Of a DNA stretch of 64,000 nucleotides, positions 2,326-60,017 are shown piece by piece (position 1 is the stretch's first letter; every line of letters starts with the position of its first letter). Location of the stretch: positions 4,118,869-4,182,868 of the forward strand of contig NZ_KV917378.1 in assembly GCF_002019735.1 (NCBI RefSeq), given 5' to 3'. The translations under genes and the position numbers were made by a program. The notes under the pieces were generated by a model, which saw nothing but the letters and a program-made list of their open reading frames with translations, did not search any database and was not told where the DNA came from. The stretch is from Salipaludibacillus agaradhaerens (lineage in GTDB: Bacteria > Bacillota > Bacilli > Bacillales > Salisediminibacteriaceae).

Positions 2326-2480
2326 AATTACAGATAACTATTTGTAAAACGCCAGCCACAAAATGGAGAGGAAAGATAATCTATTTAGGCGAGAGGTACC
2401 AGAGGTGAATATCCTGATTCACACTACCAAATCAATGGGGGAAAAACGAAAATACTCATTGATTGACGGTTCGTTTTATA
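2326..2480 (+). repeat. Dispersed element R1, copy A
   Basis: First of seven related intergenic segments in this window. Readable landmarks, in order: ACAGATAA, GTAAAACG near the 5' end, AAAATGGAGAGGAAAGATAA, TCTATTTAGGCG, ATCCTGATT, AATCAATGGGGGAAAAACGA, and the 3' end GGTTCGTTTTATAA. The ends carry the short inverted pair TAAAACG/CGTTTTA. This copy ends only 6 bp before the -35 box of the tig promoter. Confidence 0.8.
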
Positions 2481-2485
2481 AATCA

Positions 2486-2513
2486 TTGAAATGCATATGC
2501 CTTGTGTTATAAT
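2486..2513 (+). promoter_or_regulatory. Sigma-A promoter of tig
   Basis: TTGAAA at 2486-2491 and TATAAT at 2508-2513 with a 16-bp spacer, followed by a leader of about 55 nt and the ribosome binding site GGAGGG. Confidence 0.75.
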
Positions 2514-2575
2514 ATAAGGGTTGCAAAACAGTAGCGATAAAAATGATCTTTTTTTATGTTGGAGGGAAAGTATAT

Positions 2576-3865
2576 ATGTCAGCAAAATGGGAAAAAAAAG
2601 AAGGTAACTCAGGTGTCCTTACGGTTGAAGTAAGTAGCGACCGTGTAAACGATGCATTGGACCAAGCCTTTAAAAAAGTTGTTAAACAAGTGAACGTACC
2701 AGGCTTTCGTAAAGGTCGTGTACCACGTCCTCTTTTTGAACAGCGCTTTGGTGTGGAGTCTCTTTATCAAGATGCATTAGACGTACTATTACCACAAGCG
2801 TACTCAGAAGCAGTCGAAGAAACTGGCATTGAGCCTGTAGATCAACCAGATATTGATATTGAAGATATGGCTAAAGGAAAGCCATTAGTATTCACTGCTA
2901 CAGTCACTGTGAAACCGGAAGTTAAACTTGGTGATTATAAAGGGCTTGAAGTAGAAGTGGAAGATACGAGTGTCACTGATGAAGATGTAGACGCTGAAAT
3001 CTCTAATCTTCAAGAAAAACATGCAGATCTTGTGGCAGTTGAAGATGGCCAAATCGAAAAAGGCGATACCGTCGTTTTTGACTTTGAAGGATTTGTGGAT
3101 GATGAACCATTTGAAGGCGGAAAGTCAGAAAATTATTCCCTTGAAATCGGTTCTGGTCAATTTATTCCAGGCTTTGAAGATGAGATGATTGGTTTGAAAA
3201 CAGGCGAAGAAGCAGAGGTAAATGTGACATTTCCTCAAGACTACCATTCTGAAGCCCTTGCAGGAAAGCCAGCTAAGTTTAAAGTGAAGATTCATGACAT
3301 TAAACGTAAAGACTTACCTGAGCTCGACGATGAGTTTGCAAAAGATGTTAATGAAGAACATGAGTCATTTGCTGCTCTAAAAGAAGATGTCCGTAAAAAC
3401 CTTGAAGAAACAAAACAACAAGAAGCTGACGCTAAAATGAAAGACACTCTGGTTGAAAAAGCAAGTGAAAACAGCGACATTGATCTTCCAGAAGCGATGG
3501 TGGAAACTGAAGTGAAGCGGATGATGGATGAATTTGGTCAACGTTTACAATCACAAGGTATGTCTATGGATATGTATTATCAGTTTGCCCAAACAGATGA
3601 AGAAGGCATGAAAGCCCAATTCCAAGATGATGCTGAAAAAAGAGTACGTGTAAATTTAACATTAGAAGCTATTGCGGAAGCTGAAAAGTTAGAGGCAAGT
3701 GACGAAGATGTAGATGCAGAAATTGAAAAAATGGCTGATATGTATAAACGCTCAGCGGATGAAATTCGTCAAATCCTTGATATGCAAGGTGGCGTTGAGA
3801 CGTTAAAAGGTGATTTAAAAGTACGTAAAGCCATAGACTTTTTAGTAGAAAACAGAAAAAAATAA
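2576..3865 (+). CDS. tig: Trigger factor, ribosome-associated chaperone
   Basis: 429 residues. Binds near the peptide exit of the ribosome and shields nascent chains; also a peptidyl-prolyl isomerase. The start is placed at ATG 2576 ([10 protein letters not shown]), behind GGAGGG at 2561-2566, and not at the in-frame ATG 2543, which has no such site. The N-terminal ribosome-binding domain has the signature GFRKGRVP (FRK at residues 44-46). The FKBP-like isomerase domain is about residues 155-245 ([20 protein letters not shown]). The C-terminal helical chaperone arm is rich in E and K and ends DFLVENRKK. It has its own promoter and a terminator, so it is probably monocistronic. Position before clpX is the usual Bacillus order. 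Confidence 0.98.
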
Positions 3866-3976
3866 GTTAATCGTTAATCACATAACCATCTGTTTCGTAA
3901 AGATTTAATTGGGGAATATTCACTTATTGCGTTATAATTTCCTATATTTTCCGAAGCAAGTGTGGAAAGGTAGTGG

Positions 3977-4008
3977 CAAGGCGCGACGGAGAATCGTGCC
4001 TTGTTTTG
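3977..4008 (+). terminator. Terminator after tig
   Basis: CAAGGC-CGA and TCG-GCCTTG arms followed by TTTTG, about 110 bp after the tig stop codon. Confidence 0.7.
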
Positions 4009-4035
4009 TACATAACTTAGGCATATACATTTTTA

Positions 4036-4065
4036 TTGACAATTAAAAACTGTTTCATTTATTCT
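4036..4065 (+). promoter_or_regulatory. Possible clpX promoter
   Basis: TTGACA at 4036-4041, 18-bp spacer, TATTCT at 4060-4065. A second -10-like TACAAT at 4133-4138 has no clear -35. Between them the palindromic core AAAGCGCTTT (about 4099-4108) resembles a catabolite-control site but mismatches the outer positions, so it is not called. Confidence 0.4.
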
Positions 4066-4288
4066 AAATCGAACATAACTATAATCAGAGGTAGGAAAAG
4101 CGCTTTACTTATCATCTGTCAGATAATTATGGTACAATTCAGGAGAAAGGATGAATGAACAGGAAACGATGCAAATAATACCTGAATGACTAAAAAAAGA
4201 TATTCAGACGTACAATGTAAACATACAAATATCTAAAGGGCTTTTGAACATGCCTGAACGTTTAATCTTAATGTAAGGGGTGAATAGG

Positions 4289-5560
4289 ATGTTTAAATTC
4301 AATGAAGAAAAAGGACAATTAAAATGTTCTTTTTGTGGTAAAACACAGGACCAAGTGAGAAAATTAGTAGCCGGCCCAGGCGTGTATATATGCGATGAAT
4401 GTATTGAATTATGTACTGAAATCGTGGAAGAAGAGTTAGGTTCTGAAGAAGAAGTGGAAATGGAGGATATTCCTAAGCCTCAGGAAATTCGTGATATTCT
4501 AAATGACTATGTTATCGGTCAAGACCAAGCGAAGAAAACGTTATCAGTGGCGGTGTATAATCACTATAAACGAGTAAATTCCGCTTCTAAGAACGATGAA
4601 GTTGAGTTAGCTAAGAGTAATATCTGTCTGATCGGGCCCACAGGTAGTGGTAAAACCCTATTAGCACAAACCTTGGCACGCATTTTAAATGTCCCTTTCG
4701 CAATAGCAGATGCTACTTCTCTCACTGAAGCGGGTTATGTTGGTGAAGACGTAGAAAATATACTGTTAAAGCTTATTCAGGCTGCAGACTATGATGTAGA
4801 AAAAGCTGAAAGAGGCATTATCTACATTGATGAGATTGACAAAGTGGCTCGTAAGTCAGAGAATCCATCTATTACAAGAGATGTATCTGGTGAAGGGGTA
4901 CAACAAGCCCTATTGAAAATTTTAGAAGGTACTACTGCTAGTGTACCACCTCAAGGGGGCCGTAAGCACCCACACCAAGAATTTATTCAAATTGACACGA
5001 CGAATGTCTTGTTTATTTGTGGCGGTGCCTTTGATGGAATTGACCAAATTATTAAACGGAGATTAGGGAAGAAAGTGATAGGCTTTGGTTCTGATACAAA
5101 TGAGTCTGATTTAAAGGAAGATCAATACTTATCTAAAATTCTCCCTGAAGATTTGTTACGTTATGGCTTAATTCCTGAATTTATCGGTCGTCTTCCAGTC
5201 ATTGCAAGTCTTGAACATCTGGATGAGGCCGCTTTAGTAGAAATTTTAACAGAGCCAAAAAATGCGCTCGTTAAACAATACAAAAAACTCCTCGAGCTAG
5301 ATGAGGTGGAGTTAGAATTTTCTGAAGAGGCATTGCGTGAAGTGGCAAATCAAGCTATTGAACGTAAGACAGGGGCGCGTGGATTACGGTCAATTATTGA
5401 AACCATGATGTTAGATGTCATGTATGAGCTGCCTTCTCGTGAAGATATTGCTAAATGTATCATTACTGATGAAACAGTTAGGGATTTAAAGCGACCGACG
5501 CTTCTAGCTGAAAATGGCGAAGAAATTAAAGAACAAAAAGAGCCAAAAGAAAGTGCATAA
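4289..5560 (+). CDS. clpX: ATP-dependent Clp protease, ATP-binding subunit ClpX
   Basis: 423 residues. AAA+ unfoldase that feeds substrates to the ClpP peptidase. The start is set at ATG 4289 ([13 protein letters not shown]) with AAGGGGTGA just before; a GTG three codons upstream lies inside that ribosome binding site. The zinc-binding domain has cysteines at residues 13, 16, 35 and 38 (CSFC, CDEC). Walker A GPTGSGKT is near residue 117, and the pore loop GYVGED near residue 149. Walker B is IIYIDEIDK, and the sensor/R-finger region is RFIGRLP-like (PEFIGRLPV). The C-terminus is acidic and lysine-rich. A strong terminator follows. Length and motifs are typical. Confidence 0.98.
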
Positions 5561-5567
5561 AGACTTT

Positions 5568-5596
5568 ACCGTCTCCAATTTGGAGACGGTTTTTAA
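5568..5596 (+). terminator. Terminator after clpX
   Basis: Perfect hairpin ACCGTCTCC / GGAGACGGT with a short AATT-containing loop, followed by TTTTT, 8 bp after the clpX stop. Confidence 0.92.
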
Positions 5597-5752
5597 TTTA
5601 TCACAGATAAGCGTCCATAAAAACTCCCGGTTAACATAAAGTGAATAGCTAAATCTATTTAGGCGTGAGCTAACGAAAGTAATGTCCTGGTTAATTCAAC
5701 TATCAATGGGAGAAGAGCGAAAACGCCTATTGATTGAAGGTTCACTTTATCC
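5597..5752 (+). repeat. Dispersed element R1, copy B
   Basis: Starts TTATCACAGATAA directly behind the clpX terminator. It continues through ATCTATTTAGGCGTGAGCTA, AATGTCCTG, TCAACTATCAATGGG, AGCGAAAACGCC and TATTGATTGAAGGTTCACTT. A second copy of only the 3' part (CATTGATTGAAGCTTTACTT) follows at about 5778-5797, so the 3' end is duplicated here. The rest of the gap to lonB (5800-6047) shows nothing recognisable apart from the lonB ribosome binding site. Confidence 0.8.
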
Positions 5753-6047
5753 AATTCTTAAGGGGCAGTAAAATCCCCATTGATTGAAGCTTTACTTTGT
5801 ATCCTCCTCCGATATATCACGTTCAAATGTGTTTATGTAATGCTAATTTCTGCCTGCTTCAGAAATCAAGATTAAGTGTTAAGTCTTCGGTAAGACTATA
5901 CATACAGATCAAAAAGCAAAGCGAACATAAGAGGACCGTAAAAGACTTATTTGTCGTCGCATAGCTGAAATTTAGGATAAGGAAGGAGTATTTAACAAAC
6001 TTAATAAACACCTTTGTTAAGGCAGTCAAGGTCAGGAGGAGGATATA

Positions 6048-7733
6048 ATGACAATTACCGGTATGATGGTGCTAATACAACTTTTTTTCGGAGTTGTGAT
6101 AGGTCTGTACTTTTGGAACTTACTTAAAAGTCAGCATACGCAACGCCGTTCTGTAGATAAAGAATCTCAAAAGGAAATGGATCAACTTAGACGAATGAGA
6201 AAAATAAAATTAACAGAGCCATTGTCAGAAAGAGTAAGACCAAAAAATTTTGCTGATGTTGTAGGACAGTCTCATGGAATTAGGTCATTACAAGCAGCTA
6301 TTTGTGGGCCCAATCCTCAACATGTCATTATTTATGGCCCACCTGGTGTAGGGAAAACAGCGGCTGCTAGGCTCGTACTCGAAGAAGCAAAGGCAAATCC
6401 AAATTCTCCTTTTCGATTTGATTCAGTCTTTGTAGAATTGGATGGCGCTACGGCTAGATTTGATGAAAGAGGCATTGCTGATCCATTAATTGGGTCAGTA
6501 CATGATCCGATTTATCAAGGCGCTGGTGCAATGGGGCAGGCCGGGATTCCGCAACCAAAACAGGGGGCTGTGACAAAAGCACATGGAGGCATTCTTTTTA
6601 TCGATGAAATTGGCGAGTTGCATTCGATACAAATTAACAAGCTGTTAAAAGTATTGGAAGAACGAAGAGTATTTTTAGAAAGTGCCTACTACCATGAAGA
6701 AAATCCCCAGATCCCTGAACATATTCACGACATTTTTAAAAAGGGATTGCCTGCAGATTTTAGGCTAATAGCAGCTACTACAAGACACCCTGAAGAGATA
6801 CCGCCAGCGATACGGTCCAGGTGTGTTGAAGTCTTCTTTAGGGGTCTGACTCAAGAGGAGGTAAGAAAAGTAGCTGCAAAATCAGTAGACAAACTTGGGA
6901 TGGATGTAGAATCCGCAGTTTATGATCAAGTGGCAAGCTATGCAACTAATGGTAGAGAAGCTGTCAATATGATTCAGCTAGCTGCCGCCATGGCAATTAA
7001 TGAAGGAAGACAAAACGTGAGAATTGTTGATTTAGAGTGGGTTATTCATGCTGGACAAATGTCACCGAGAATGGAAAAGAGAATCTCCTCTATCGATAAA
7101 ATCGGAGCTGTAAATGGTTTAGCAGTGAGCGGTCCTGGTGCAGGAATGCTTTTAGAGGTGGAAGTGACAGCTTTAAAACGAGCAGCTGGTGGAGGCCTCA
7201 TTGTAACAGGTATTGCGGACGAAGAAAGCACGGGAAACCAAATGAGAAGTGTCAAACGAAAAAGTATGGCGAGAAGCTCAGTAGAAAATGTTGTCACTGT
7301 ACTAAAACATATGGGAATTAAAACGGATCAGTATGATTTGCATGTGAATTTTCCGGGAGGTGTTCCTGTTGATGGTCCTTCAGCAGGAATAGCGATCGCC
7401 ACTGCAATTTATTCAGCCATACACCGTATTCCCGTTTCTCATCACATCGCAATGACAGGAGAAATTAGTATATATGGCGATGTAAAACCTGTTGGGGGAG
7501 TCGTAACAAAAGTGGAGGCGGCAAAATATGCTGGTGTGTCAGAAGTTATCATCCCTAAAGAGAATAACCAAATGGTCTTACAGGACGTTGAAGGTATAAC
7601 GGTTTTTCCAGTAGAGAACTTAAAAGAAGTTTTTGATAAAGCATTAAAGGTAACAGAAATAAATAGGGAAGAAATACAAGACACACTTCTTAACTCGTTT
7701 TCATTGTTAGACAAAGAAGGCTCAATAGGATAA
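6048..7733 (+). CDS. lonB: Membrane-anchored ATP-dependent protease LonB
   Basis: 561 residues. Lon-type protease lacking the large N-terminal substrate domain; in B. subtilis it acts in the forespore under sigma-F. ATG 6048 follows AGGAGGAGGATATA. One hydrophobic N-terminal segment (residues 6-25, GMMVLIQLFFGVVIGLYF) would anchor it. Walker A GPPGVGKT is near residues 98-105, and Walker B GGILFIDEIGE follows. The proteolytic domain has the catalytic serine in DGPSAGIAIA (about residues 441-450) and the lysine in VVTKVEAAKYAG. It lies between clpX and lonA as in B. subtilis. No sigma-F promoter was identified with confidence. A hairpin terminator follows. Confidence 0.97.
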   Translation: MTITGMMVLIQLFFGVVIGLYFWNLLKSQHTQRRSVDKESQKEMDQLRRMRKIKLTEPLSERVRPKNFADVVGQSHGIRSLQAAICGPNPQHVIIYGPPGVGKTAAARLVLEEAKANPNSPFRFDSVFVELDGATARFDERGIADPLIGSVHDPIYQGAGAMGQAGIPQPKQGAVTKAHGGILFIDEIGELHSIQINKLLKVLEERRVFLESAYYHEENPQIPEHIHDIFKKGLPADFRLIAATTRHPEEIPPAIRSRCVEVFFRGLTQEEVRKVAAKSVDKLGMDVESAVYDQVASYATNGREAVNMIQLAAAMAINEGRQNVRIVDLEWVIHAGQMSPRMEKRISSIDKIGAVNGLAVSGPGAGMLLEVEVTALKRAAGGGLIVTGIADEESTGNQMRSVKRKSMARSSVENVVTVLKHMGIKTDQYDLHVNFPGGVPVDGPSAGIAIATAIYSAIHRIPVSHHIAMTGEISIYGDVKPVGGVVTKVEAAKYAGVSEVIIPKENNQMVLQDVEGITVFPVENLKEVFDKALKVTEINREEIQDTLLNSFSLLDKEGSIG

Positions 7734-7765
7734 AATTGAACAAGACTCATGTAGGGAAGCCCTAA

Positions 7766-7795
7766 GACGTGATCCGATGGGATGACGTCGTTTTT
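7766..7795 (+). terminator. Terminator after lonB
   Basis: GACGTGATCC / GGATGACGTC, one mismatch, GATG loop, followed by GTTTTT. Confidence 0.75.
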
Positions 7796-7865
7796 GTCTC
7801 AAGGAAGTGACAGGCAAATGATTGAAACAGGTTAAGTAAACGAGCCATTTTTACAACCAGTATGT

Positions 7866-7896
7866 GGATTGTAAAGAATAACAAGCTTTACAATCC
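7866..7896 (+). promoter_or_regulatory. Perfect 11-bp inverted repeat in the lonA 5' region
   Basis: GGATTGTAAAG at 7866-7876 and its exact reverse complement CTTTACAATCC at 7886-7896, with a 9-nt spacer. No T-run follows, so a terminator is unlikely. It could be an operator or an mRNA hairpin. The 9-nt spacing recalls the CIRCE operator, but the arm sequence is different. Confidence 0.6.
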
Positions 7897-7959
7897 TCAT
7901 TATCAGTTAAAAGCCTCATGTGTAGAAATGACATGAGATTTATGGAGGTGTATTTACAT

Positions 7960-18598: not shown

Positions 18599-19054
18599 AT
18601 GAGTTATTATGAGATGTTACGAGCATATGTAGGTAAAGAGACACTTATCTTACCGGGAGCAGCGGTTATTATAAAAAAAGGAGATAAGGTATTGCTGCAA
18701 AAACGGGTTGAAGGTGAATGGGGCCTTCCTGGTGGTTTGATGGAAATAGGAGAAAGCTTCGAAGAGACGGCTCAGAGAGAAGTTAAGGAAGAAACAGGAT
18801 TACTAATCGAACTAGAGCATTTACATAAGTATGATATCTATTCTGGAAAAGAGTATTATGTGGAAGCTCCGAATGGTGATCCTTATTTTGCAGTGACAGT
18901 CCTTTTTTATACGTCGAATTTTGTCGGGGAATTATCCATAGAAGATGAGGAGACGTTAGATTTACAGTTTTTTTCGTTTTTATCACTCCCGGAAAAAATA
19001 AGACCTTCCCATAAAAGATTTTTAAATTTATTTTATACAAATAACCGTCCGTAA
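18599..19054 (+). CDS. NUDIX hydrolase
   Basis: 151 residues. The Nudix box is complete: GLMEIGESFEETAQREVKEE then TG, matching GX5EX7REUXEEXGU, so the protein should hydrolyse a nucleoside diphosphate linked to another moiety; the substrate is not predictable. The start is ATG 18599 (MSYYEMLRAYVGKETLILPG) behind AGGAGAG; the upstream GTG 18587 overlaps that site. The reading frame ends inside dispersed element R1 copy C: the final residues NNRP and the stop codon are encoded by the element's 5' end. The native C-terminus may therefore have been altered. Confidence 0.9.
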   Translation: MSYYEMLRAYVGKETLILPGAAVIIKKGDKVLLQKRVEGEWGLPGGLMEIGESFEETAQREVKEETGLLIELEHLHKYDIYSGKEYYVEAPNGDPYFAVTVLFYTSNFVGELSIEDEETLDLQFFSFLSLPEKIRPSHKRFLNLFYTNNRP

Positions 19055-19190
19055 AACGCCCGCCTCAAAATAGAGACCAGAGATAAGTCTATTTGGTGGG
19101 AGACAACGGACTCTCATGTCCTGATTGACGCAACTATCAATCAGTGGGATTGGGAGGAAAGTGCCTACTGAATGATGATTCGTTTTATGA
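19041..19190 (+). repeat. Dispersed element R1, copy C
   Basis: Reads ATAACCGTCCGTAAAACG, CGCCTCAAAATAGAGA, CTATTTGGTGGGAGACAACG, CTCATGTCCTGATTGA, CAACTATCAATCAGTGGG, and ends GATTCGTTTTATGA. The first 14 bases are also the end of the NUDIX gene. It lies between that gene and spoVID. The remaining gap to 19366 holds only the spoVID ribosome binding site. Confidence 0.85.
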
Positions 19191-23051: not shown

Positions 23052-23570
23052 ACATACACCTCTTTCACACGAGTTAAGATAATCTATGCACATGGTTAGG
23101 AAACAGTGTCTAGGTTAATTAGGATAAAATTGACGTTATGATTAAATGGTAGGAAAAAGGGGGACGATACTAAACGTTATCGCTCAATAAACTCTACATA
23201 AGTCCCTTCTCTAGCCTATTGTTTAAAAAACGTTGTCATGCTGCTAAGTTACAGCCATTTTTAGTTGGAGAAGTCAAAATACCTCTCAACTGATGCTACT
23301 CTTTCTATAATTAAGGCTTATGCTGCTGGCTTTGTCTTATTGACAAATGAAATGACAACGCAAGGTCAAACCAATATTATAACTATTGAGCCGCAACATT
23401 TGCTGCTATAAAAATGTTATATATCCTTAAGCACTTCAATATAATAAGCAATAGGCGCAAGAGTGGATTACCATTATGAAGGATGAAAGTGAAGAAGAGA
23501 ACTTTGCTATTGATTATGATTCAAAGTCAAGGTAAAATACGGATATACAAGATAATTAATTAAAATGTTG
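23052..23570. other. Intergenic region upstream of the valS leader
   Basis: AT-rich, with no coding stretch or repeat recognised. A -10-like TATAAT at 23440-23445 is placed suitably for the T-box transcript, but its -35 region is poor. Confidence 0.4.
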
Positions 23571-23849
23571 AGAGGGAAGAGTACGTCTTGAACCCGCCAG
23601 AGAGGAATATCAGCATTTGTTGCTGCTGAAAGGTATTCCCGGATGTAAAGATGGAAGGTCGCCCTGGAGTTGTGATGATGAAAGGTAGAACGATTTACTC
23701 ACTAGTTATCACCGGCAAGCGCCGTTAACGCATTTAAGTGTACAGAAAGCATATGCACTAGTTTAAGCATGTGTTTCCTGTAAACAAAGGTGGTACCGCG
23801 AGGAATTTAACTCCCTTCGTCCTTTGACGAGTGGGGGTTTTTTGTGATT
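23571..23849 (+). ncRNA. T-box leader controlling valS
   Basis: Conserved T-box sequence AGGTGGTACCGCG at 23788-23800 is followed by a terminator hairpin. The Stem I base pairs GAGTA (about 23579) with TACTC (23696-23700). A candidate specifier codon GTA (Val) sits at 23685-23687 in AAAGGTAGAACGA, just inside that stem. CCAGAGAGG and CCCTGGAG in the upper Stem I are also typical. Uncharged tRNA-Val should bind and allow read-through into valS. Confidence 0.92.
23811..23847 (+). terminator. T-box regulated terminator
   Basis: CTCCCTTCGTC / GACGAGTGGGGG hairpin and TTTTTT directly after the T-box motif; the competing antiterminator uses the GGTACC-side sequence. Confidence 0.85.
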
Positions 23850-23963: not shown

Positions 23964-26609
23964 ATGTCAGAAAAACCTAACACGACGATGCCACCGAAAT
24001 ACGATCCACAGGCAACAGAGGCTAAATGGTACCCATACTGGGTCAATGGTAAATTTTTTGAAGCAACAGGGGATGAGACAAAACAACCGTATACGATTGT
24101 GATTCCGCCACCAAATGTGACAGGGCGACTTCATTTAGGGCATGCGTGGGATACAACACTACAGGACATTTTAATTCGTGTGAAACGTATGCAAGGCTAC
24201 GATGCACTTTGGCTCCCTGGAATGGATCATGCAGGAATTGCGACTCAAGCTAAGGTAGAAGGGAAGCTAAGAGAACAAGGACTATCTCGACACGACCTCG
24301 GCCGTGAAAAATTCCTTGAAAAATCATGGGAATGGAAGGAAGAGTATGCGGATTTTATTAGAGAACAATGGGCTAAGCTTGGTCTATCTCTCGATTACTC
24401 TCGTGAACGGTTTACGTTAGACGATGGTTTGTCACAAGCTGTTCGAGAAGTGTTTGTACGCTTGTATGAAGAAGGGCTTATCTACCGAGGAGAGTATATC
24501 ATTAACTGGGACCCTCAAACGAAAACAGCTTTATCTGATATTGAAGTCATTTATAAGGATGTTCAAGGGGCATTCTATCATATGAAATATCCATTAGCAG
24601 ACGGAGATGGTCATATTGAAGTAGCTACGACAAGACCGGAAACGATGCTAGGAGATACAGCAGTTGCTGTCCATCCAAATGATGAAAGATATCGTCACTT
24701 AATTGGCAAAAAAGCCATCTTACCTATCGTTGGCCGTGAAATAGAGATCGTAGCAGATGATTACGTGGATATGGAATTTGGCTCGGGAGCTGTTAAAATT
24801 ACACCTGCCCATGATCCAAATGACTTTGAAATTGGGAATCGCCATAATTTAGAGCGGATCTTGGTGATGGATGAATCAGGAACAATGAATGAGAATGCAG
24901 GAAAGTATAAGGGGCTTGATCGTTTTCAATGCCGTAAGCAAATCGTAAAAGATCTTCAAGACGAAGGCATACTATTTAAAATTGAAGAACATACTCATAG
25001 TGTTGGACACTCTGAACGGAGTGATGCTGTGGTAGAACCTTATTTGTCTACTCAATGGTTTGTCAAGATGGGACCATTAGCAGAAGAAGCTATCAAACTT
25101 CAGCAGAAAGATGGGAAAGTTAATTTTGTTCCGGACAGGTTTGAAAAAACCTATATGCATTGGATTGAAAATATTAGAGATTGGTGTATCTCAAGACAAC
25201 TATGGTGGGGACATCGTATCCCAGCTTGGTTTCATAAAGAAACGGGAGAAATTTATGTGGGAAGGAAAGAACCGGACGACATTGAGAATTGGCAGCAAGA
25301 CGAAGATGTACTTGATACGTGGTTCAGTTCTGCCTTATGGCCTTTTTCTACAATGGGATGGCCGGATAACGAAGCAGCTGACTACAAGCGATACTATTCA
25401 ACGGATGCTCTTGTTACAGGGTATGACATTATTTATTTTTGGGTAGCTCGCATGATTTTTCAAGGACAGCATTTTACAGGTCAACGTCCGTTCAAAGACG
25501 TCTTGATCCATGGACTTGTGCGAGATGCGGAAGGGCGAAAGATGAGCAAGTCACTAGGGAATGGCGTCGATCCTATGGACGTTATTGATAAGTATGGTGC
25601 TGATGCTCTTAGATTTTTCTTAAGTACAGGAAGTTCGCCAGGTAATGACTTACGATTTTATTGGGAAAAAGTGGAGGCTAACTGGAACTTCGGGAATAAA
25701 ATTTGGAATGCCTCACGTTTTGCTCTGATGAATATGGATGGGCTAAAATATGAGAATATAGATTTAACAGGTAAAAAATCGATTGCTGATCAATGGATAT
25801 TAACAAAGCTACAGATGACGATTGAACATGTGACGAAATTTATTGACACTTATGAATTTGGTGAAGTTGGACGAGCACTCTATAATTTCATTTGGGATGA
25901 TTTTTGTGACTGGTATATAGAAATGGCTAAATTACCATTGAACGGGGAAGATGGAGAAGCTAAACAGATGACTCGTTCTGTATTAGCATATGTGCTTGAC
26001 CAAACAATGCGTTTACTTCATCCATTTATGCCATTCATTACAGAAGAGGTGTGGCAACATTTACCACATGAAGGAGAATCCATCACTGTGGCATCATGGC
26101 CGGTAAAAGACGATACTTTAATGAATGAACAAGGTATGAAGGATATGCAGCTTCTTCAAGATATTATTCGTTCAATTAGAAATACGCGATCAGAGCTAAA
26201 TGTCCCTATGAGTAAAGAAATCACGCTATACATTAAGGCCGATTCAGAGGAAGTTCTGAAGCAGCTTGAACGTGGGAAAGCTTATATTGATCGATTCTGT
26301 AACCCATCAGAGTTAAAATTAGCTACGAACTTGATAGCTCCTGAAAAATCTATGAGTTCAGTTCTTTCAGGTGTTGAGCTTTATATGCCTTTGGCAGATC
26401 TATTGGACTTAGATGCGGAAATCACCCGTTTAAATAATGAATTAAAGCGACTTGATGGTGAAGTGGTGCGTGTGCAAAAAAAGCTTGCTAATGAAGGGTT
26501 TATTAGTAAAGCTCCTGAAAAAGTAGTTGCTGAAGAGAAAGCGAAAGAAAAAGATTACATTGAGCAACGAGAAAAAGTGCAATTAAGATTGAACGAATTA
26601 AAAAATTGA
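23964..26609 (+). CDS. valS: Valyl-tRNA synthetase
   Basis: 881 residues, class Ia synthetase charging tRNA-Val. The HIGH-type motif is HLGH at residues 57-60 in [15 protein letters not shown], and KMSKS is at residues 526-530. The editing domain lies between them ([19 protein letters not shown]). The anticodon-binding domain and a C-terminal coiled coil ([20 protein letters not shown]) complete it. Start behind GGAAGGTG. Controlled by the T-box leader. In B. subtilis folC follows; here dat and others intervene. Confidence 0.99.
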
Positions 26610-40582: not shown

Positions 40583-40770
40583 TGAATGAATGTCATGTTT
40601 CAAAATGATATTAAAGTTCGAATAATGATTGTGGCCTTCACTTCAGAACGATGCTTTCCCGAGAGCTTGTCTTCAGCTAACGTTTGCTCGGTAAATTTTA
40701 GCAACAGTGAATCTTTAGACTGTGCTTCATCCTCAGGGAGTCACCATCTTACGCTTCAGCCATAAATATA
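40583..40770 (+). repeat. Extragenic repeat R2, copy 1
   Basis: Shares GAATGAATGTCAT, an AAAAT-rich stretch ending TTCGAATA, and GCTTCATCCTCAGGGAGTC with copy 2 at 42515-42610. The internal part CTTTCCCGAGAGCTTGTC and TTGCTCGGTAAA recalls a worn GC-rich Bacillaceae extragenic repeat. Confidence 0.6.
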
Positions 40771-40797: not shown

Positions 40798-40940
40798 TTA
40801 TAAATCCAACCTTCAATCAGTGGGCGTTTTCGGACTTCTTCCCACTGATTAGTAGTTGAGTGGAGCAGGACATGAGCGCCCGCTATCTCTCTTCTCTATT
40901 TCAGGCGCGGGTTTTACGGACGGTTATCTGTGATAAATTC
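40798..40940 (-). repeat. Dispersed element R1, copy D (inverted)
   Basis: Read on the minus strand it starts TTATCACAGATAACCGTCCG and TAAAACC, then CGCCTGAAATAGAGAAGAGA, GCTCATGTCCTG and CTCAACTACTAATCAGTGGG. It ends CGCCCACTGATTGAAGG then TTGGATTTATA. The pair AATCAGTGGG / CCCACTGATT forms a perfect 10-bp stem. Only copy in this orientation. The remaining gap to maf (40941-41139) holds nothing recognised. Confidence 0.85.
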
Positions 40941-42514: not shown

Positions 42515-42610
42515 TAATGAATGTCATCCTTTAAAAATAAGATGTTATAATTCGAATACTTCAGATTACGCTTCATCCTCAGGGAGTCGCTGCCTTATGT
42601 GACAGTCACT
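42515..42610 (+). repeat. Extragenic repeat R2, copy 2
   Basis: Reads AATGAATGTCAT, AAGATGTTATAATTCGAATA, TTACGCTTCATCCTCAGGGA and GTCGCTGCCTTATG. Shorter than copy 1 at 40583, lacking the middle part. R1 copy E follows within 12 bp, as R1 copy D follows R2 copy 1. Confidence 0.6.
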
Positions 42611-42621
42611 TTTTATCATAG

Positions 42622-42766
42622 TTAAATGTCCGTAAACCTTCCGACTCAAAATAGAGAGGAGAGCTAATCATTCTATTTAGGCGGGAGCTAACGGCCGCTA
42701 ATGTTCTGATTGACTCAATTAACAATCAGTGGGAAAGCGCCCCTACATTGAAGGTTCGTTTTATCA
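42622..42766 (+). repeat. Dispersed element R1, copy E
   Basis: GTTAAATGTCCGTAAACC, then CGACTCAAAATAGAGAGGAG, TTCTATTTAGGCGGGAGCTA, TAATGTTCTGATTGACTCAA, AACAATCAGTGGGAAAGCG, ending ATTGAAGGTTCGTTTTATCA. It lies between radC and mreB. The rest of the gap (42767-43051) shows only a -10-like TATAAT at 42952-42957 before mreB. Confidence 0.85.
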
Positions 42767-47570: not shown

Positions 47571-47622
47571 TTTTATCACAGATAAAGGACGCTCATGTCC
47601 TGATTGGAGGTTCGTTTTATAA
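47571..47622 (+). repeat. Dispersed element R1, copy F (internally deleted)
   Basis: TTTTATCACAGATAA joins directly to GGACGCTCATGTCCTGATTG and then GGAGGTTCGTTTTATAA. The 5' and 3' ends are intact but the central and 3' hairpin parts are missing, leaving about 52 bp of the usual 150. The gap 47245-47812 holds no gene. Confidence 0.8.
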
Positions 47623-51172: not shown

Positions 51173-51270
51173 TGTTAGTTGTTTGGTTGCGCCCAAAGAA
51201 CTGCAACCGCACAGATCAGGTTTGAAGCACTCAAGTGCACCTGTGATGGCGAGTCTGAGTATTGAAGGAG
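51173..51270 (+). ncRNA. L21 leader RNA (ribosomal protein autoregulation)
   Basis: Hairpin GGTTGC (51185-51190) / GCAACC (51203-51208), then a nested stem CACAG / CTGTG enclosing GCACT / AGTGC. It sits directly before rplU behind a good promoter. This is the arrangement known as the L21 leader in Firmicutes. Presumably bound by L21. Confidence 0.85.
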
Positions 51271-52900: not shown

Positions 52901-52919
52901 AAATAAGGAGGTAAATGAG

Positions 52920-53660: not shown

Positions 53661-53716
53661 TCCAATGTGGTGAAATAGATAGAACTCATATTTCCCTAAT
53701 CAAATCTTATGCAGTT

Positions 53717-53762: not shown

Positions 53763-53837
53763 AACCACAACCTTTACAAACACTTTACAAAGCATTTACT
53801 TACTATTCAATCTTCCTTAATATATGAAACTTATACT
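53761..53837 (+). promoter_or_regulatory. PhoP-box direct repeats and promoter of pstS
   Basis: TTTACA at 53773, TTTACA at 53784, TTTACT at 53795 and a weaker TTCAAT at 53806, each exactly 11 bp apart; TTAACC at 53761 may be a further half-site. This matches PhoP sites (TTAACA-like repeats). -10 candidate TATACT at 53832-53837. It indicates induction at low phosphate. Confidence 0.8.
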
Positions 53838-53894
53838 TTAAGTGTGGTCAAGCGATCATAACATACTAGTCTCGTTAAGAGGAGGAAGTTGAAA

Positions 53895-54893: not shown

Positions 54894-54903
54894 TATGTTT
54901 AAT

Positions 54904-54934
54904 AGAGATGAGAGTAGAAAACACTCTCATCTCT
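54904..54934 (+). terminator. Hairpin between pstS and pstC
   Basis: AGAGATGAGAGT / ACTCTCATCTCT perfect 12-bp stem with a 7-nt loop and no T-run. Likely a partial terminator or RNA stabiliser giving more PstS than transporter. Confidence 0.75.
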
Positions 54935-55006
54935 ATCCTTAAATGAACGCATTGTTTAACATGAATGAAAGATTAGAAGCACGATGTGAGTGAAAGGGGC
55001 ATTAAC

Positions 55007-55942
55007 ATGGCTCAGCATGAGAGCGTAAAAGAGATCATTCAATATAAAAAAAAACGTACAAAAACAACGTCAATCATTGAAAAAATCATTCCCTCTTTGT
55101 TATTTTTAGCAGCATTCATTTCTGTTCTAACAACGGTGGGAATTGTGTTCACACTCATCTTTGAAACAGTTTTATTTTTTAGAGAAGTGTCATTCATCGA
55201 ATTTTTCTCAGGGACAGTGTTAAAACCTTTAAGTCCTGTAGATCCTCAATTCAGTATTTTACCATTAGTCATGGGGACTTTTATGACAACACTCATTGCA
55301 ATGTTAGTAGCCATTCCAATAGGGTTGACGACTGCTGTATATTTGAGTGAATATGCATCAGGGACAACGAGAAAAGTGTTAAAGCCCCTCATTGAAGTTT
55401 TAGCAGGAATACCAACAATTGTGTATGGTTTTTTTGCATTTACATTTGTTACACCAGTATTGAGAGAAATCATCCCAGGTTTATCTGCTACAAATGCGCT
55501 CAGTCCTGGTATAGTCATGGGAATTATGATTATTCCAATGGTAGCTTCTCTCTCAGAAGATGCGATGAATTCAGTGCCTAATGCTATGAGAGAAGGTGCT
55601 AAAGCACTTGGAGCTACACAGCTCGAAGTCACTTTCCGTGTTGTTATTCCTGCTGCAATTTCCGGAATTATTGCGTCATTCGTGTTAGGGATTTCCAGAG
55701 CTATTGGAGAAACGATGATCGTGACAATAGCCAGTGGTAGCTCTAAAAATTTCACATTCGATGTGACGCAGTCAATGCAAACGATGACAGCTTATATTGT
55801 AGAAATCACGAGTGGCGATGCAGCCGCTGGGACCACCATATATTATAGTCTTTATGCAGTGGCCATGACGCTATTTGTATTCACACTACTTATGAACATG
55901 CTAGCAAGATATATTAGCAGCAGGTTTAGGGAGGTCTATTAA
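55007..55942 (+). CDS. pstC: Phosphate ABC transporter permease PstC
   Basis: 311 residues from ATG 55007 (MAQHESVKEIIQYKKKRTK) behind GAAAGGGGC. Six membrane helices. The EAA-type loop is near EGAKALGATQLEVTFRVVIP; GIPTIVYGFFAFTFVTP and SRAIGETMIVTIASG are typical. Three bp before pstA. Confidence 0.96.
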   Translation: MAQHESVKEIIQYKKKRTKTTSIIEKIIPSLLFLAAFISVLTTVGIVFTLIFETVLFFREVSFIEFFSGTVLKPLSPVDPQFSILPLVMGTFMTTLIAMLVAIPIGLTTAVYLSEYASGTTRKVLKPLIEVLAGIPTIVYGFFAFTFVTPVLREIIPGLSATNALSPGIVMGIMIIPMVASLSEDAMNSVPNAMREGAKALGATQLEVTFRVVIPAAISGIIASFVLGISRAIGETMIVTIASGSSKNFTFDVTQSMQTMTAYIVEITSGDAAAGTTIYYSLYAVAMTLFVFTLLMNMLARYISSRFREVY

Positions 55943-55945
55943 TTC

Positions 55946-56830
55946 ATGAAATACATCGATTTATCAGCAGTCGAAAAAAAAATGTCCAAACGTTTGCTCA
56001 TGAATAAGGCTGTTAAATATATCTTTCTATCAGCAACATTGTTTGGGCTCGTCATATTAGCGATTCTTGTTTACCGAGTAGCTATAGATAGTATTGGGTG
56101 GATAAATTTAGACTTTCTAACTAATAAACTATCAACGGCACCAGAGCGAGCAGGGATTAAAGGAGCTATTGTAGGGACATTGTGGCTTATGCTTATTGTT
56201 GGACCTGTGACGATGATATTAGGAGTGGGAACAGCCATTTATTTAGAAGAGTATGCAAAACGAGGGAAATTACATTCATTTATTCAAACCAATATTAGTA
56301 ATTTGGCTGGTGTTCCTTCAATTGTGTTTGGAATCTTAGGCTTAACTATTTTCGTGCGGTTATTTGGTTTCGGTACCAGTATAATCGCAGGTGGCTTGAC
56401 AATGGCGCTCCTTGTCCTCCCGATCGTTGTAGTATCAGCCCAAGAAGCGATTCGATCAGTTCCGAGCTTTTTGAGAGAAGCCTCTTACGGCATGGGGGCA
56501 ACAAAGTGGCAGACCGTAAAAAATGTGGTATTACCAGCCTCATTACCAGGTATTTTAACAGGCGTTATTTTAGCCCTCTCTCGAGCAATTGGAGAAACAG
56601 CTCCACTTGTGGTTATCGGTATTCCTGCATTGCTTATACCAATTCCATCCAGTATCGGTGATAACTTCACTGCTTTACCAATGCAAATTTATTATTGGAC
56701 GCTAGATTCAGTTATGGTGGATGAATATGCTAACCTTGCTGCAGCCACCATTGTTGTTTTGTTAATTGTACTTATCTTATTGAATTCGACGGCAATCATT
56801 ATAAGAAATAAATTTCAAAAAAGATATTAA
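55946..56830 (+). CDS. pstA: Phosphate ABC transporter permease PstA
   Basis: 294 residues, six membrane helices. EAA-type loop EASYGMGATKWQTVKNVVLP; LAGVPSIVFGILGLTIFV; ALSRAIGETAPLVVIG. ATG behind GGGAGGT. 17 bp before pstB. Confidence 0.96.
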   Translation: MKYIDLSAVEKKMSKRLLMNKAVKYIFLSATLFGLVILAILVYRVAIDSIGWINLDFLTNKLSTAPERAGIKGAIVGTLWLMLIVGPVTMILGVGTAIYLEEYAKRGKLHSFIQTNISNLAGVPSIVFGILGLTIFVRLFGFGTSIIAGGLTMALLVLPIVVVSAQEAIRSVPSFLREASYGMGATKWQTVKNVVLPASLPGILTGVILALSRAIGETAPLVVIGIPALLIPIPSSIGDNFTALPMQIYYWTLDSVMVDEYANLAAATIVVLLIVLILLNSTAIIIRNKFQKRY

Positions 56831-56847
56831 AAGGAGGATAACCTAGT

Positions 56848-57675
56848 ATGGGATTAAACCAAGTGATAGATGAGCGTGCAGAGACAGACGAGCGTGTGAA
56901 AGATGAATTTTCCATGGACAAAAAGCTTGTTTTTAATACAAGAGGACTTAATTTATGGTATGGAGAGACACATGCACTAAAAAATATAAACCTTCCAATT
57001 AGGGAGAATGATATTACAGCGATTATTGGTCCATCAGGCTGTGGAAAGTCCACATATATTAAAACGTTGAACAGAATGGTAGAACTAGTTTCAAGTGTAA
57101 AAGTGTCAGGAGAGATTCTCTATAGAGGAGACAATATCTTTCAACACTCATACCGAGTAGAGCAACTGAGAACAAGAGTGGGGATGGTTTTTCAAAAACC
57201 GAATCCCTTTCCAAAATCTATCTTTGACAATGTGGCATACGGCCCACGCATTCATGGGATTCGAGACAAAAAATTACTTAAACAGATTGTCGAACAAAGT
57301 TTAAAAGGTGCAGCCATTTGGGAGGAAGTTAAAGATCGTTTAAATGAGAACGCCTATGGACTTTCTGGAGGACAACAGCAACGTTTGTGTATTGCCAGGT
57401 GTCTTGCAATTGAGCCAGATGTTATATTAATGGATGAACCAACATCAGCACTTGATCCTAAGTCCACCTTAAAAGTAGAAGAACTGGTACAAGATTTAAA
57501 GAAAAACTATTCTATCATTATAGTCACGCATAATATGCAGCAAGCGGCAAGAATTTCTGATAGAACGGCATTTTTTCTTAATGGTGAAGTGATTGAATAT
57601 GACGAAACAGATCTCATTTTTTCAACACCAAATGACAAACGCACTGAAGATTACATTACAGGGCGATTCGGTTAA
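56848..57675 (+). CDS. pstB: Phosphate ABC transporter ATPase PstB
   Basis: 275 residues. Walker [10 protein letters not shown], signature [16 protein letters not shown], Walker [14 protein letters not shown]. The N-terminus (first 25 residues) is a charged extension before [23 protein letters not shown] behind AAAGGAGGATAA. phoU follows after 15 bp. Confidence 0.97.
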
Positions 57676-57690
57676 GGAGGAACGGGAAAT

Positions 57691-58350
57691 ATGCCTACAC
57701 GAGAGACGTTTGAAACAAACTTAGCGGAGTTAAAAGAAGACATCATGTTTTTAGGTACAATGGTTGAAAAAGCTTTCGAAGCGACACTTGATGCTGTCGT
57801 ACATGCTGATGAAGTTAAATTTGATGATATCATTTCTAATGACAAATACATTAATGAATTGGAATTGGAGATAAATGAAAAAGCGACACTTCTTATTGCC
57901 AAGCAACAACCCGTAGCTTCTGATCTACGTAAAATCATTGTAACACTGAAAGTATCCAGTGATTTAGAACGAATGGGGGATCTAACCGTTGATATGGCCA
58001 AAGCGGCAAAACGGATAGAGGATCGTGAGAAAGTGGATAACTACATGGAAGACTTGCTGGCTATGGCTGAAAAAGCACAAGATATGTTAAGAAAAGTACT
58101 TGCTGCCTATCGTGCTTCAGACGTTATAAAGGCTCAGCTCATTGCATCACTAGATGATGAAATAGACGCGGCTTATGGAGACTTTGTTCAATCGATTTTT
58201 AAAATGGCTATTGCCGGTCATGATTCTCCAGAGTATATTACCCAGATGGCATTTATATCAAGATATATTGAACGAATAGCTGATTACTCTACGAATATCG
58301 CTGAATGGATTGTTTATGAAGTTAATGGACAACGATTTGATCTAAACTAA
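57691..58350 (+). CDS. phoU: Phosphate-signalling regulator PhoU
   Basis: 219 residues, all-helical, two PhoU repeats. Metal-binding ELEINEKATLLIAKQQPVAS and SSDLERMGDLTVDMA; second repeat ISRYIERIADYSTNIAEWIV. Negatively tunes Pst and PhoR signalling. ATG behind AAGGAGG. 25 bp before a response regulator. Confidence 0.96.
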   Translation: MPTRETFETNLAELKEDIMFLGTMVEKAFEATLDAVVHADEVKFDDIISNDKYINELELEINEKATLLIAKQQPVASDLRKIIVTLKVSSDLERMGDLTVDMAKAAKRIEDREKVDNYMEDLLAMAEKAQDMLRKVLAAYRASDVIKAQLIASLDDEIDAAYGDFVQSIFKMAIAGHDSPEYITQMAFISRYIERIADYSTNIAEWIVYEVNGQRFDLN

Positions 58351-58375
58351 GACTAGTGAGAAAGTTGTTGATTCT

Positions 58376-59140
58376 ATGAGTGAGGCTAAGGTAGTACCTC
58401 GCATTTTAATAGCAGAAAAAGATCGATCAGTGCGAGGTGAAATACAACAGATTTTTCGATCATATGGCTATGAAACATGGGTAGTGGCAAATGGAAAAGA
58501 CGCGTTAAAAATCATTAACAGTCTTAAGCCAGATGCTGTTATTTTAGACATGGATTTACCTGAACTAAGTGGACTTGATGTGTGTCGGGAATTGAGACAA
58601 ACACTAAATAATTGGTTGCCTGTGGTACTTATTTCAACTCAATCTGATGAAATAGAAGCTGTACTCGGAATGGAATTAGGTGCTGATGATTACATGGTAA
58701 AACCGCTTCGCTTTAAAGAACTTGTTGCAAGAGTAAAGGCGGTGTTGCGACGAGGACAGCTTTGCTGCTTAGAAAATGAAACAAAAGAAGAGGTGGTTTC
58801 TGCATTAAAACAAGGAAAATATAGGAGCGGTGAATTAGTCCTTGATCCTGTTCATTTGACACTTTATAAAGGAAAAAAACCTGTTGAATTAACAAGAAAA
58901 GAGTTTGAGCTTATGTTTTTCCTGATGAAAAATAAAGGAAAAGCTTTTACTAGACAGCACTTGATTACGGCATTGACAGTTAACGATCAAACGTATGATG
59001 AACGAATTATAGATGTGTTCGTAAGTCGTATAAGGCGACAAATTGAGCCCAATCGGAGGAATCCATTGTATATAAAGACTGTCAGAAATGTGGGATATAT
59101 GCTGAAAGATGTTCCCATAAAGCATAAAAGCTATCAATAA
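58376..59140 (+). CDS. OmpR-family response regulator, orphan, in the pst-phoU operon
   Basis: 254 residues. Receiver domain with phospho-acceptor D58 (VILDMDLPELSGLDVCRELR) and conserved K in YMVKP. A winged-helix DNA-binding domain is in the C-terminal half (LTRKEFELMFFLMKNKGKAF, then VFVSRIRRQIEP). A 25-residue interdomain segment with CC is unusual. No histidine kinase lies nearby. A PhoP/WalR-like role in phosphate control is inferred from position only. Followed by a strong terminator. Confidence 0.9.
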   Translation: MSEAKVVPRILIAEKDRSVRGEIQQIFRSYGYETWVVANGKDALKIINSLKPDAVILDMDLPELSGLDVCRELRQTLNNWLPVVLISTQSDEIEAVLGMELGADDYMVKPLRFKELVARVKAVLRRGQLCCLENETKEEVVSALKQGKYRSGELVLDPVHLTLYKGKKPVELTRKEFELMFFLMKNKGKAFTRQHLITALTVNDQTYDERIIDVFVSRIRRQIEPNRRNPLYIKTVRNVGYMLKDVPIKHKSYQ

Positions 59141-59154
59141 GGAGTATTACGAAG

Positions 59155-59182
59155 CGGTGAATCATTATTCACCGTTTTTTTT
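59155..59182 (+). terminator. Terminator of the pst operon
   Basis: CGGTGAAT / ATTCACCG with a CATT loop and TTTTTTTT. Confidence 0.92.
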
Positions 59183-59242
59183 ATCACAGATAATCGTCTG
59201 AAAAATTCTCGCCTCAAAATAGAGAATCTATATAGGTGCACT
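59178..59242 (+). repeat. Dispersed element R1, copy G, 5' part
   Basis: TTATCACAGATAA, CGCCTCAAAATAGAGA and ATCTATATAGGTG match the 5' part of R1. Beyond 59242 the similarity stops. A matching 3' end lies at about 59999-60017, so this copy appears to be split. Confidence 0.75.
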
Positions 59243-59530
59243 AGCATTGCATAAAAATGTCAATAGTTCAAGTTGTTTAAAGCCAATAAAGATAATACCC
59301 GATTAATGGTGGGGGATATCACCTGAATTAAAGGACTTTTTCTTTGCGTAACATAACTTTAATGAACATTATAACTAGATAACGTTAATTAGTGACGAGA
59401 AGGACACGTGAAATCCTAATAATCATTAATAAAAACCTCGTTTACTCACTTTTTTAATAAAACTGTTCACCTCTATACCTTTAGATTAAGGAGTCTTGTC
59501 AATAATCGAGTCATTAGTGAGAGTAAAAAT

Positions 59531-59736
59531 AAGCGAATATTTTCCGGTTAAATGCAGAAGAGAGCTCATTTTTGGGGATATAGGGGGAAATTTTCCGACT
59601 ATGCAAAGCAAAACGAGACATTTTCAGATTATCGGAGTCAATAGGCGGAAACTCTCCGTCTATTTCTCAGATTGGGTTCTTAACCTTAGCCACGATAAGA
59701 GCGAATCTTCACGATCCCAGAGGCGGGAATCCGCAT
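59531..59736. repeat. Cluster of short imperfect palindromes (R3)
   Basis: Four related motifs built on GCGGAAA / TTTCCGC: 59531-59551, 59580-59602 (ATAGGGGG, TTTCC, CTAT), 59641-59663 (ATAGGCGGAAA, CTCCGTCTAT) and 59719-59736. Spacing is about 50 to 80 bp. A small open frame across it (59496-59774) has no gene signal and is judged spurious. Confidence 0.5.
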
Positions 59737-59773
59737 ATTTTTATCAAAGATTTTTTTATCCTCTTGTCACTTA

Positions 59774-59998
59774 GCTTTAAAAGAACGCGTATATGTGTTT
59801 GATCGCGGTTATTTGGCTTATAAGCGCTTTTATCGCATGACGGACGATAGCTCTTTACGGAAAAACGCTGTTTACGATTTTAAATTATCGGAAGAATCAG
59901 TTGTGTTGGACGATCAAATAATTGTTATCGGCACGACTCAAAAACGTGCTGAAAACGACTTCAGACTGTTAAAAGTGATTGATTCAGTTAATCACTAA
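59774..59998 (+). pseudogene. IS4-family transposase remnant
   Basis: Frame reads LKERVYVFDRGYLAYKRFYR, then KNAVYDFKLSEESVVLDDQI and IVIGTTQKRAENDFRLLKVI, typical of IS4/IS231 transposases around the second catalytic Asp (DRGY). Only about 75 codons remain; the first Asp region, the YREK-like end and terminal repeats are missing. It is a decayed fragment. Confidence 0.8.
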
Positions 59999-60017
59999 TT
60001 GATTTGGTTCGTTTTAT
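59999..60017 (+). repeat. Dispersed element R1, 3' end fragment (rest of copy G)
   Basis: TTGATTTGGTTCGTTTTATG matches the R1 3' end ATTGAAGGTTCGTTTTATAA. With 59178-59242 it flanks the palindrome cluster and the transposase remnant. Confidence 0.6.

Follow-up and report, generated by a model that had tools for sequence, protein, structure and literature searches.

R1, a replication-oriented TTTAT repeat of Bacilli and its likeness to single-strand transposons

Copies of R1 in the window and their anatomy

The stretch analysed here, called the window, comprises 64,000 nt of Salipaludibacillus agaradhaerens (contig NZ_KV917378.1, positions 4,118,869 to 4,182,868). It carries between its genes a dispersed non-coding repeat, R1, whose copies, spread and possible mode of movement are the subject of this work. 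A covariance model (CM) of R1 was built from 29 copies, five of them window copies, and a profile hidden Markov model (HMM) was built from the same alignment, A1 (rows L001-L030 minus L017, L018, L024, L026 and L027, plus four window copies). In total, the window holds five full R1 copies, two remnants and one minimal copy (Table 1). The preliminary description of this DNA had listed eight similar stretches, of which seven are related by both CM and HMM. Three R1 starts lie 2-10 nt farther left than had been given, and the minimal copy had been overlooked; it stands in tandem behind the copy at 5597-5750, one TTTAT being common to both. The same build is known as 54-55-nt forms in other species, where the 54-nt forms look like deletions between the CCCCCAC repeats of hairpins 1 and 2. 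For the truncated copy near the end of the window the CM gives a weaker match, 59180-59307, which the HMM narrows to the left half, and a similar left half lies at the same place in G004, a genome of the same genus (67154-67209 of the joined stretch).

The eighth stretch, 59999-60017, had been taken as the split-off right end of this truncated copy, a view that finds no support. Neither R1 profile marks it, and it adjoins a degraded fragment of an IS4-family transposase (59795-60020, present in G004 too) with tblastn identities of 67, 62, 59 and 48% to four annotated IS4-family transposases. For this fragment the NCBIfam IS4 model gives an expectation value (E) of only 0.064, and Pfam no match. 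In a by-eye alignment, CGTTTTGAT stands at about the place of 59999-60017 in one of the two IS4 genes read, and CGATTTGAT in the other.

Table 1. R1 copies and R1-related features (window coordinates, except the last line, which refers to loci of other species)
Feature	Position	Strand	Basis
R1 copy, full length	2324..2479	+	CM 130.5 bits; HMM 1e-34
R1 copy, full length	5597..5750	+	CM 118.3 bits
Minimal second-subfamily copy, ~55 nt	5746..5800	+	HMM right module 5762-5798, E 1.3e-4; both limits read by eye
R1 copy, full length; site empty in G004 and G006	19031..19188	+	CM 151.2 bits
R1 copy, hairpin 1 internally deleted, opposite orientation	40800..40937	-	CM 114.5 bits; alignment
R1 copy, hairpin 2 shortened	42612..42764	+	CM 132.1 bits; alignment
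R1 remnant keeping left tip, middle and right tip	47572..47620	+	CM 32.1 bits, E 1.3e-5
R1 left half (truncated copy)	59180..59238	+	HMM positions 1-69, E 1e-8
TTTAT target, empty in window; complete second-subfamily element here in G004	60013..60017	+	alignment blocks overlap by these 5 bases; sequences
RF01690 inside R1-type elements	L150:4129-4195, L154:4874-4940, L096:1462-1528, L184:4391-4457, 15 others	either orientation	Rfam

R1 is built in a fixed order: a flanking TTTAT, 8-11 nt, hairpin 1, a conserved linker, hairpin 2, 9 nt and a terminal TTTAT. The consensus reads TTTAT CACAGATAAC, hairpin 1, linker, hairpin 2, AAGGTTCG TTTTAT, hairpin 1 being CGTCCGT..ACGGACG with the inner arm CTCCCGCCT..AGGCGGGAG, and hairpin 2, in good copies, CAATCAGTGGGAG..CTCCCACTGATTG. 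Most copies measure 150-160 nt, within a range seen of about 54 to 492 nt. Folded as single-stranded DNA, one good copy reaches -36.5 kcal/mol (z -8.3). The alignment of copies has no terminal inverted repeats, and the TAAAACG that had been proposed as the end of the element sits inside the hairpin 1 module. Across genera the spacing is constant: hairpin 2 is separated from TTTAT by 9 nt in 35/35 rows of a second alignment, A2, in which NTAAC precedes hairpin 1 in 22 rows and CTAAC precedes hairpin 2 in 27. The TAA before the hairpins could pair with the TTA of TTTAT, as a putative guide.

The hairpins had been said to be kept by paired changes, which holds weakly within the genome of the window (G000) and strongly between genera. 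Among 29 copies of G000, 85.3% of 1009 cells are paired and 14.7% unpaired, pair-keeping double changes fill 14 cells versus 9.0 in shuffles, and RNAalifold on copies of this genome gives five pairs only. Among the 35 copies of A2, taken from many genomes, double changes occur in 27 of 32 pairs and fill 113 cells versus 35.3, a level reached by 0 of 500 shuffles; the arms of hairpin 1 swap as whole words (CGTCCGT/ACGGACG, GGGCAGT/ACTGCCC, TGGCTGT/ACAGCCA). The rows of A2 were hand-picked after an 82% filter, which 13 of 73 had passed; 24 come from named loci, and G000 and the sampled genomes supply the other 11. As the A2 structure was taken from a single A2 row, the test is biased in favour of that structure as compared with slid versions. 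Since covariation is strong between genera and marginal within one genome, we conclude that the structure is kept in the line that spreads, while single copies decay after insertion.

Spread, insertion sites and orientation

The whole-genome search that had been proposed returned not a few copies but at least 150 in G000, besides further ones in related genomes. Of 2126 first-look candidates 150 were scored; as all of them matched (worst E 1.8e-19), the true copy number must be higher, and chance is excluded by such a number. Within the genus, at least 74 matches each are found in G004 and G006 (all scored ones), and none at E 0.001 in G001, G002, G003, G005 and G007. In G019, which belongs to another genus, 108 of 150 scored candidates match. 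With a model made from a diverse set of copies, matches are found in 38 of the 299 Bacilli genomes sampled and in 22 of 119 genera, the filters of this survey losing weak matches. A scan of named sequences with the right-end pattern yielded at least 120 stretches; 79 of 80 titled rows are Bacilli by name, with Paenibacillus, Niallia, Lysinibacillus, Oceanobacillus and Evansella among them, and the remaining one, a Modestobacter contig 4601 bases long, may reflect contamination. All copies had been described as lying between genes, which stands apart from one of 134 copy clusters of G000, located inside an open reading frame (ORF) of at least 70 aa.

Vehicles of spread were considered as well. 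Phage-borne spread was rejected, the phage search being empty and viral_contigs giving 2 stretches. Spread on plasmids was also rejected, with 0 plasmid records for a window-type query and 5 and 2 for two other queries, none of these being a B. cereus-group record. One plasmid record, CP079755.1 (labelled Klebsiella grimontii), has a partial R1-like and an IS4-like match and is possibly a mixed assembly.

Comparison of near relatives allows occupied and empty sites to be seen side by side. For the window gene at 23964-26609, identity is 93% to G004 and 90% to G006. At 19031-19188 the window reads TTTAT-element-TTTAT, and in both relatives the site is empty with a single TTTAT, TTATTTTAT followed directly by GATAG (more widely, AAATTTATTTTAT before the same GATAG). 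The reverse case is found at 60013-60017, where the window is empty and the G004 element begins with TTTATCCCACTCTTAAGGTGCAG and ends with GCTTAGCTTTAT. Other compared sites are less clean because the flanking intergenic DNA has diverged. In addition, G000 contains head-to-tail arrays with a period of about 151-154 nt (C1:1671549-1672431, 2265979-2267514 and 2353944-2354250), in which neighbouring units share one TTTAT (or TATAT); the units of the first array are 98-100% identical where compared, so they were probably amplified in place. The clean one-TTTAT empty sites, the patchy presence within one genus and the arrays sharing one TTTAT bear out the earlier suggestion of a small non-autonomous mobile element.

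The left flank of R1 is TTTAT, with an upstream preference limited to T at -1 (51%), and the right end is conserved as GTTTTAT. The pentamers on the two sides were compared in 189 solo copies whose alignment reaches both ends (83 from G000, 71 from named loci and 35 from G006). The left pentamer is other than TTTAT in 41 of them and is matched on the right in none of these 41, and right-end variants such as TATAT are found with a TTTAT left flank. When tandem units are kept in the count, eight variants are shared by both sides, all TATAT, which are taken as junctions inside tandem arrays. The left and right pentamers thus vary independently, so we assign the left TTTAT to the target and the one on the right to the element itself.

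These counts bear directly on the reading of R1 as a classical miniature inverted-repeat transposable element (MITE) whose DDE transposase would duplicate its 5-bp target, TTTAT, and would by chance favour replication forks. The presence of TTTAT on either side of a copy, and only once at an empty site, does resemble a 5-bp target-site duplication (TSD), and bcr1, a repeat of the B. cereus group, has been called MITE or MITE-like (PMC3446304, PMC3733652; these and the papers cited below are quoted from excerpts). However, a TSD, for which a search had been proposed, is contradicted by the 0/41 altered left flanks repeated on the right and by right ends such as TATAT beside a TTTAT flank, and the ends are not inverted. 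A TSD-making MITE was therefore rejected as the account of R1, and we judge the DDE route improbable.

The orientation of R1 follows replication. In G000, the sign of the GC skew (20 sampled stretches) changes within 0.43-0.65 Mb and again within 2.8-3.02 Mb, with R1 orientation flipping nearby; dnaA lies at 2.876 Mb in G000 and at base 346 in G004. Tandem copies were collapsed before the counts, and a copy is said to follow replication if its TTTAT...TTTAT strand is the leading strand and thus lies exposed in the lagging-strand template. Taking the origin at dnaA and the terminus at 0.55 Mb, 115 of the 134 fetched G000 clusters (about 86%) follow replication, or 114 with the terminus opposite the origin; in G004, with the origin at dnaA, 35 of 40 listed clusters do so. 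Agreement with local GC skew is 64/78 in G006, 20/26 in G019 and 7/7 in G004, after copies in stretches with |GC skew| <0.05 had been set aside (9 in G006, 4 in G019 and 28 in named loci). A split of the genome into two arms beats 200 shuffles in G019 (75/106; maximum 71) and G004 (36/40; maximum 32).

Gene direction does not explain this orientation, since 29 of 32 copies still follow replication where both flanking genes oppose the fork (G000 13/15, or 13/16 with the terminus opposite the origin; G006 6/6; G019 4/4; named loci 6/7). Copies lacking two flanking ORFs were dropped from this count, which covers 128/134 in G000, 73/78 in G006, 24/26 in G019 and 81/94 in named loci. Target supply does not explain it either, because intergenic TTTAT occurs 368 times in the leading and 440 times in the lagging sense.

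A tyrosine recombinase acting on a folded single-strand site, like the integron attC, would account for several of these properties: the circle and the target would recombine within TTTAT, the hairpins are kept by compensatory change, arrays share one TTTAT and orientation is linked to replication. Nevertheless, each R1 hairpin has a short linker and a TTTAT of its own beside it, an arrangement known from IS200/IS605 ends, and the copies are dispersed; we see only a slim chance for this explanation.

Relation to known repeats and Bacillaceae-1 inserts

The repeat bcr1 was reportedly given a double-hairpin fold by Klevan in 2007. Its other properties are described as a length of 147-167 nt, intergenic position, high copy number, a TTTAT motif, features of a mobile element and restriction to the B. 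cereus group (PMC6542083, PMC2267715). Thus R1 resembles bcr1 in its size of about 150 nt, TTTAT at both sides, intergenic position and many copies, whereas it occurs in 22 of 119 sampled Bacilli genera and has a replication-linked orientation and an asymmetry between target and end, neither of which is stated for bcr1 in the excerpts. Since the comparison was made by description and not by sequence, R1 is here termed bcr1-like and is not assigned to bcr1. No account of an R1 family outside the B. cereus group was found in an incomplete sample of the literature. The preliminary description recognised no named family; this stands for the R1 core, which has no match in Rfam, and has to be qualified by the size, TTTAT and copy number shared with bcr1, as well as by the inserts discussed below.

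In their mode of insertion, the IS200/IS605 transposons offer a second comparison. They insert 3' of T-rich pentanucleotides including TTTAT, with neither TSD nor terminal inverted repeats (PMC4227781), have hairpins with a short 5' guide that pairs to the cleavage site, and insert into the lagging strand (PMC6006769, PMC5934647). R1 shares with them and with the group A IStrons the T-rich pentanucleotide target, the lack of TSD and inverted repeats, subterminal hairpins with short 5' sequences, and an orientation that follows replication. Unlike IS200/IS605, R1 is non-coding, and the searches revealed no Y1 transposase with R1-like ends. Moreover, the element ends in TTTAT again, in contrast to TCAG in group A IStrons and TCAA in IS608. 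The REP/BIME repeats are likewise non-coding, intergenic and made of hairpins, with a conserved 5' tetranucleotide, and are thought to be moved by Y1 enzymes, TnpA-REP (RAYT) (PMC6006769); R1, however, exceeds them in length, combines two different hairpins with fixed ends and a fixed target, and lies near just one of 60 Y1 loci.

R1 forms of up to 492 nt, seen in other species, contain inserted hairpins, many of which are Bacillaceae-1 RNA (RF01690, 67 nt). RF01690 was scanned at its gathering threshold over 18 loci with visible inserts out of the 120 named ones (19 matches), and at E 1 over six other loci, where one match exceeded the gathering score (L193) and two were weaker (L170). Above the gathering score, 19 of 20 matches lie inside or directly beside R1 halves, the exception being L111:201-267; in L150, L154 and L096 the match fills the space between two R1 halves within 4 nt. 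By a hand count, match and R1 have the same direction in 10 cases and opposite directions in 9. In the named loci, 30 of 38 perfect five-pair hairpins whose loop is (A/G/T)TCCT fall in R1 zones (51 of 937 kb); elsewhere 0 of 7 do so in the G006 and G019 stretches and 0 of 3 in G000. The window has no RF01690 match, and RF01690 is an insert in some copies, not the R1 core. Because the loci were picked for inserts, the result is that R1 carries Bacillaceae-1, and no share of all Bacillaceae-1 inside R1 is implied. The reverse complement of Bacillaceae-1 has been proposed as a CsrA-binding small RNA (sRNA), a sponge, its discoverers being unsure of the strand (PMC4333381). Other inserts were also seen: a tandemly repeated hairpin module of about 55 nt between the two R1 hairpins (L139:2771-3155, L170:1891-2382), and a longer structured insert starting with GATTGGTGAGATACAGTGAAACTT (L164:4542-4929, L193:3420-3792), for which no Rfam name was found.

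R1 might also have spread through RNA by a reverse transcriptase, or be a structured RNA gene family kept for its function, as the preliminary description had left open. The strong helix covariation between genera and the Bacillaceae-1 RNA inserts in some copies speak for such a role, as does the expression of about half of the bcr copies in B. cereus (50.9% and 40.0% in two strains, 18 families pooled; PMC3446304). Yet compensation within one genome is marginal, orientation tracks replication independently of transcription and the core is unmatched in Rfam, and on the first two grounds a structured RNA gene family was rejected as the principal explanation and is not needed for the description of R1. 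As for a reverse transcriptase, RVT_1 has no match in the R1-bearing genomes G000, G004 and G346, and one broken match only in G006. We consider an RNA route very improbable.

A single-strand mechanism and its missing enzyme

We think that R1 is probably a non-coding, non-autonomous element that moves in trans as a single strand, like the IS200/IS605 "peel and paste" transposons. This reading builds on the anatomy, the left target, the right TTTAT, the clean sites, the orientation and the covariation between genera, all of them observed, and from these we infer a HUH/Y1-like enzyme, a circle and a guide role of the TAAC before both hairpins. The replication fork would expose the R1 plus strand in the lagging-strand template, where the two subterminal hairpins would fold and be bound by a trans-acting HUH/Y1-like enzyme. 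This enzyme would cut 3' of the left flanking TTTAT and 3' of the terminal TTTAT of R1 itself, releasing the element as a single-stranded circle, which would then be joined 3' of another TTTAT in a lagging-strand template. If the circle were inserted beside the terminal TTTAT of a copy already in place, head-to-tail arrays would result; single copies decay after insertion.

Several results weigh against this proposal, first of all those on the enzyme. Y1 matches exist in 17 of 19 named R1-bearing genomes. Nevertheless, no Y1_Tnp match at E 0.001 is found in G000 or G004, despite insertion sites that differ between the two; the R1-bearing G346 and G349 lack a Y1 match, R1-free relatives carry Y1 genes, and an R1 copy is nearby at 1/60 Y1 loci. 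A larger gene-bearing element with R1 ends, which had been proposed as a thing to look for, was not seen in 120 named 8-kb loci. The ends were paired there with two HMMs, the first from 14 named copies and the second from 73, giving 33 pairs, namely 32 of 54 to 492 nt and a spurious one of 1239 nt, as against 93 left-only and 69 right-only pieces, many of the unpaired pieces being truncations. With regard to the ends, some of the altered left pentamers (e.g. TTTTA) are probably alignment slips. With regard to orientation, the named 8-kb loci agree with local GC skew in just 63/95 cases, and the two-arm split in G006 is no better than shuffles (37/53; mean 33.5, maximum 42); we suspect that the arms of G006 are rearranged. 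Moreover, IS200/IS605 orientation recapitulates replication and other IS families are biased too (PMC5371812), so the orientation of R1 supports the mechanism and does not prove it.

Other searches complete this picture. TnpB (PF07282) is absent from 7 of 12 R1-bearing genomes, G000 and G004 among them; IS200 elements of relatives, where two copies could be compared, have ends that differ from R1; and no coding sequence is visible by eye in 14 of the 33 R1 pairs. Since the host gave no match to a Y1 transposase, a reverse transcriptase or TnpB, the mover is still to be found or has been lost; an enzyme lost from R1 hosts, or transiently present in them, is possible.

A related explanation is that R1 copies are relics: IS200/IS605 transposases that the host no longer has would have moved them in the distant past, and they would be static today. 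It is compatible with the single-strand mechanism for G000 alone, where 95.6% is the highest identity between dispersed copies in a comparison of 30 and Y1, reverse transcriptase and TnpB are all missing. Insertion sites that differ between genomes 93% identical at the window gene mentioned above speak against it, as do two copies on separate contigs (L101, L105) of Bacillaceae bacterium Marseille-Q3522 that are about one base apart by eye, and we think this explanation unlikely.

A broader reading, to which we attach some though rather low credence, would make R1 and bcr1-like repeats a separate, Bacilli-wide class of single-strand mobile DNA that is purely non-coding and coupled to replication. 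The mover would be something other than a recognisable Y1 transposase or a reverse transcriptase, possibly a protein of host or phage that processes single-stranded DNA, with CCCG-n-TAAC plus hairpin and CCCGATTGGTTCAACTAAC plus hairpin as recognition modules. To a good extent, Bacillaceae-1 RNA would then be cargo of these elements or a hairpin parasite nested in them.

The window has other features as well. A 50-nt repeat in two copies (74% identical; 40713-40762 and 42559-42608) contains CTTCATCCTCAGGGAGTC, each copy lying at most about 40 nt from an R1 copy. Two 34-nt repeats with TTGAGAATGAT(A/T)ATCA (60242-60275 and 60366-60399), which we take to be Fur-box-like, lie upstream of a region with repeats of 77-243 nt (61263-63965) that is possibly a surface haem-uptake locus. 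Rfam matches in the window are a T-box leader (23559-23827) and a ribosomal protein L21 leader (51195-51266).

If our preferred explanation of R1 as an element moved in trans as a single strand is true, a repeat type thought special to the B. cereus group would be one branch of a Bacilli-wide family, and the generic MITE label would be replaced by a testable mechanism based on a single strand, the lagging strand and a TTTAT target. A mobile-element explanation would also be offered for at least some Bacillaceae-1 "sRNA" members in Rfam. In our opinion, the missing part would thereby be turned into a well-defined problem: what protein is responsible for moving hundreds of copies where a genome has no detectable Y1 transposase?

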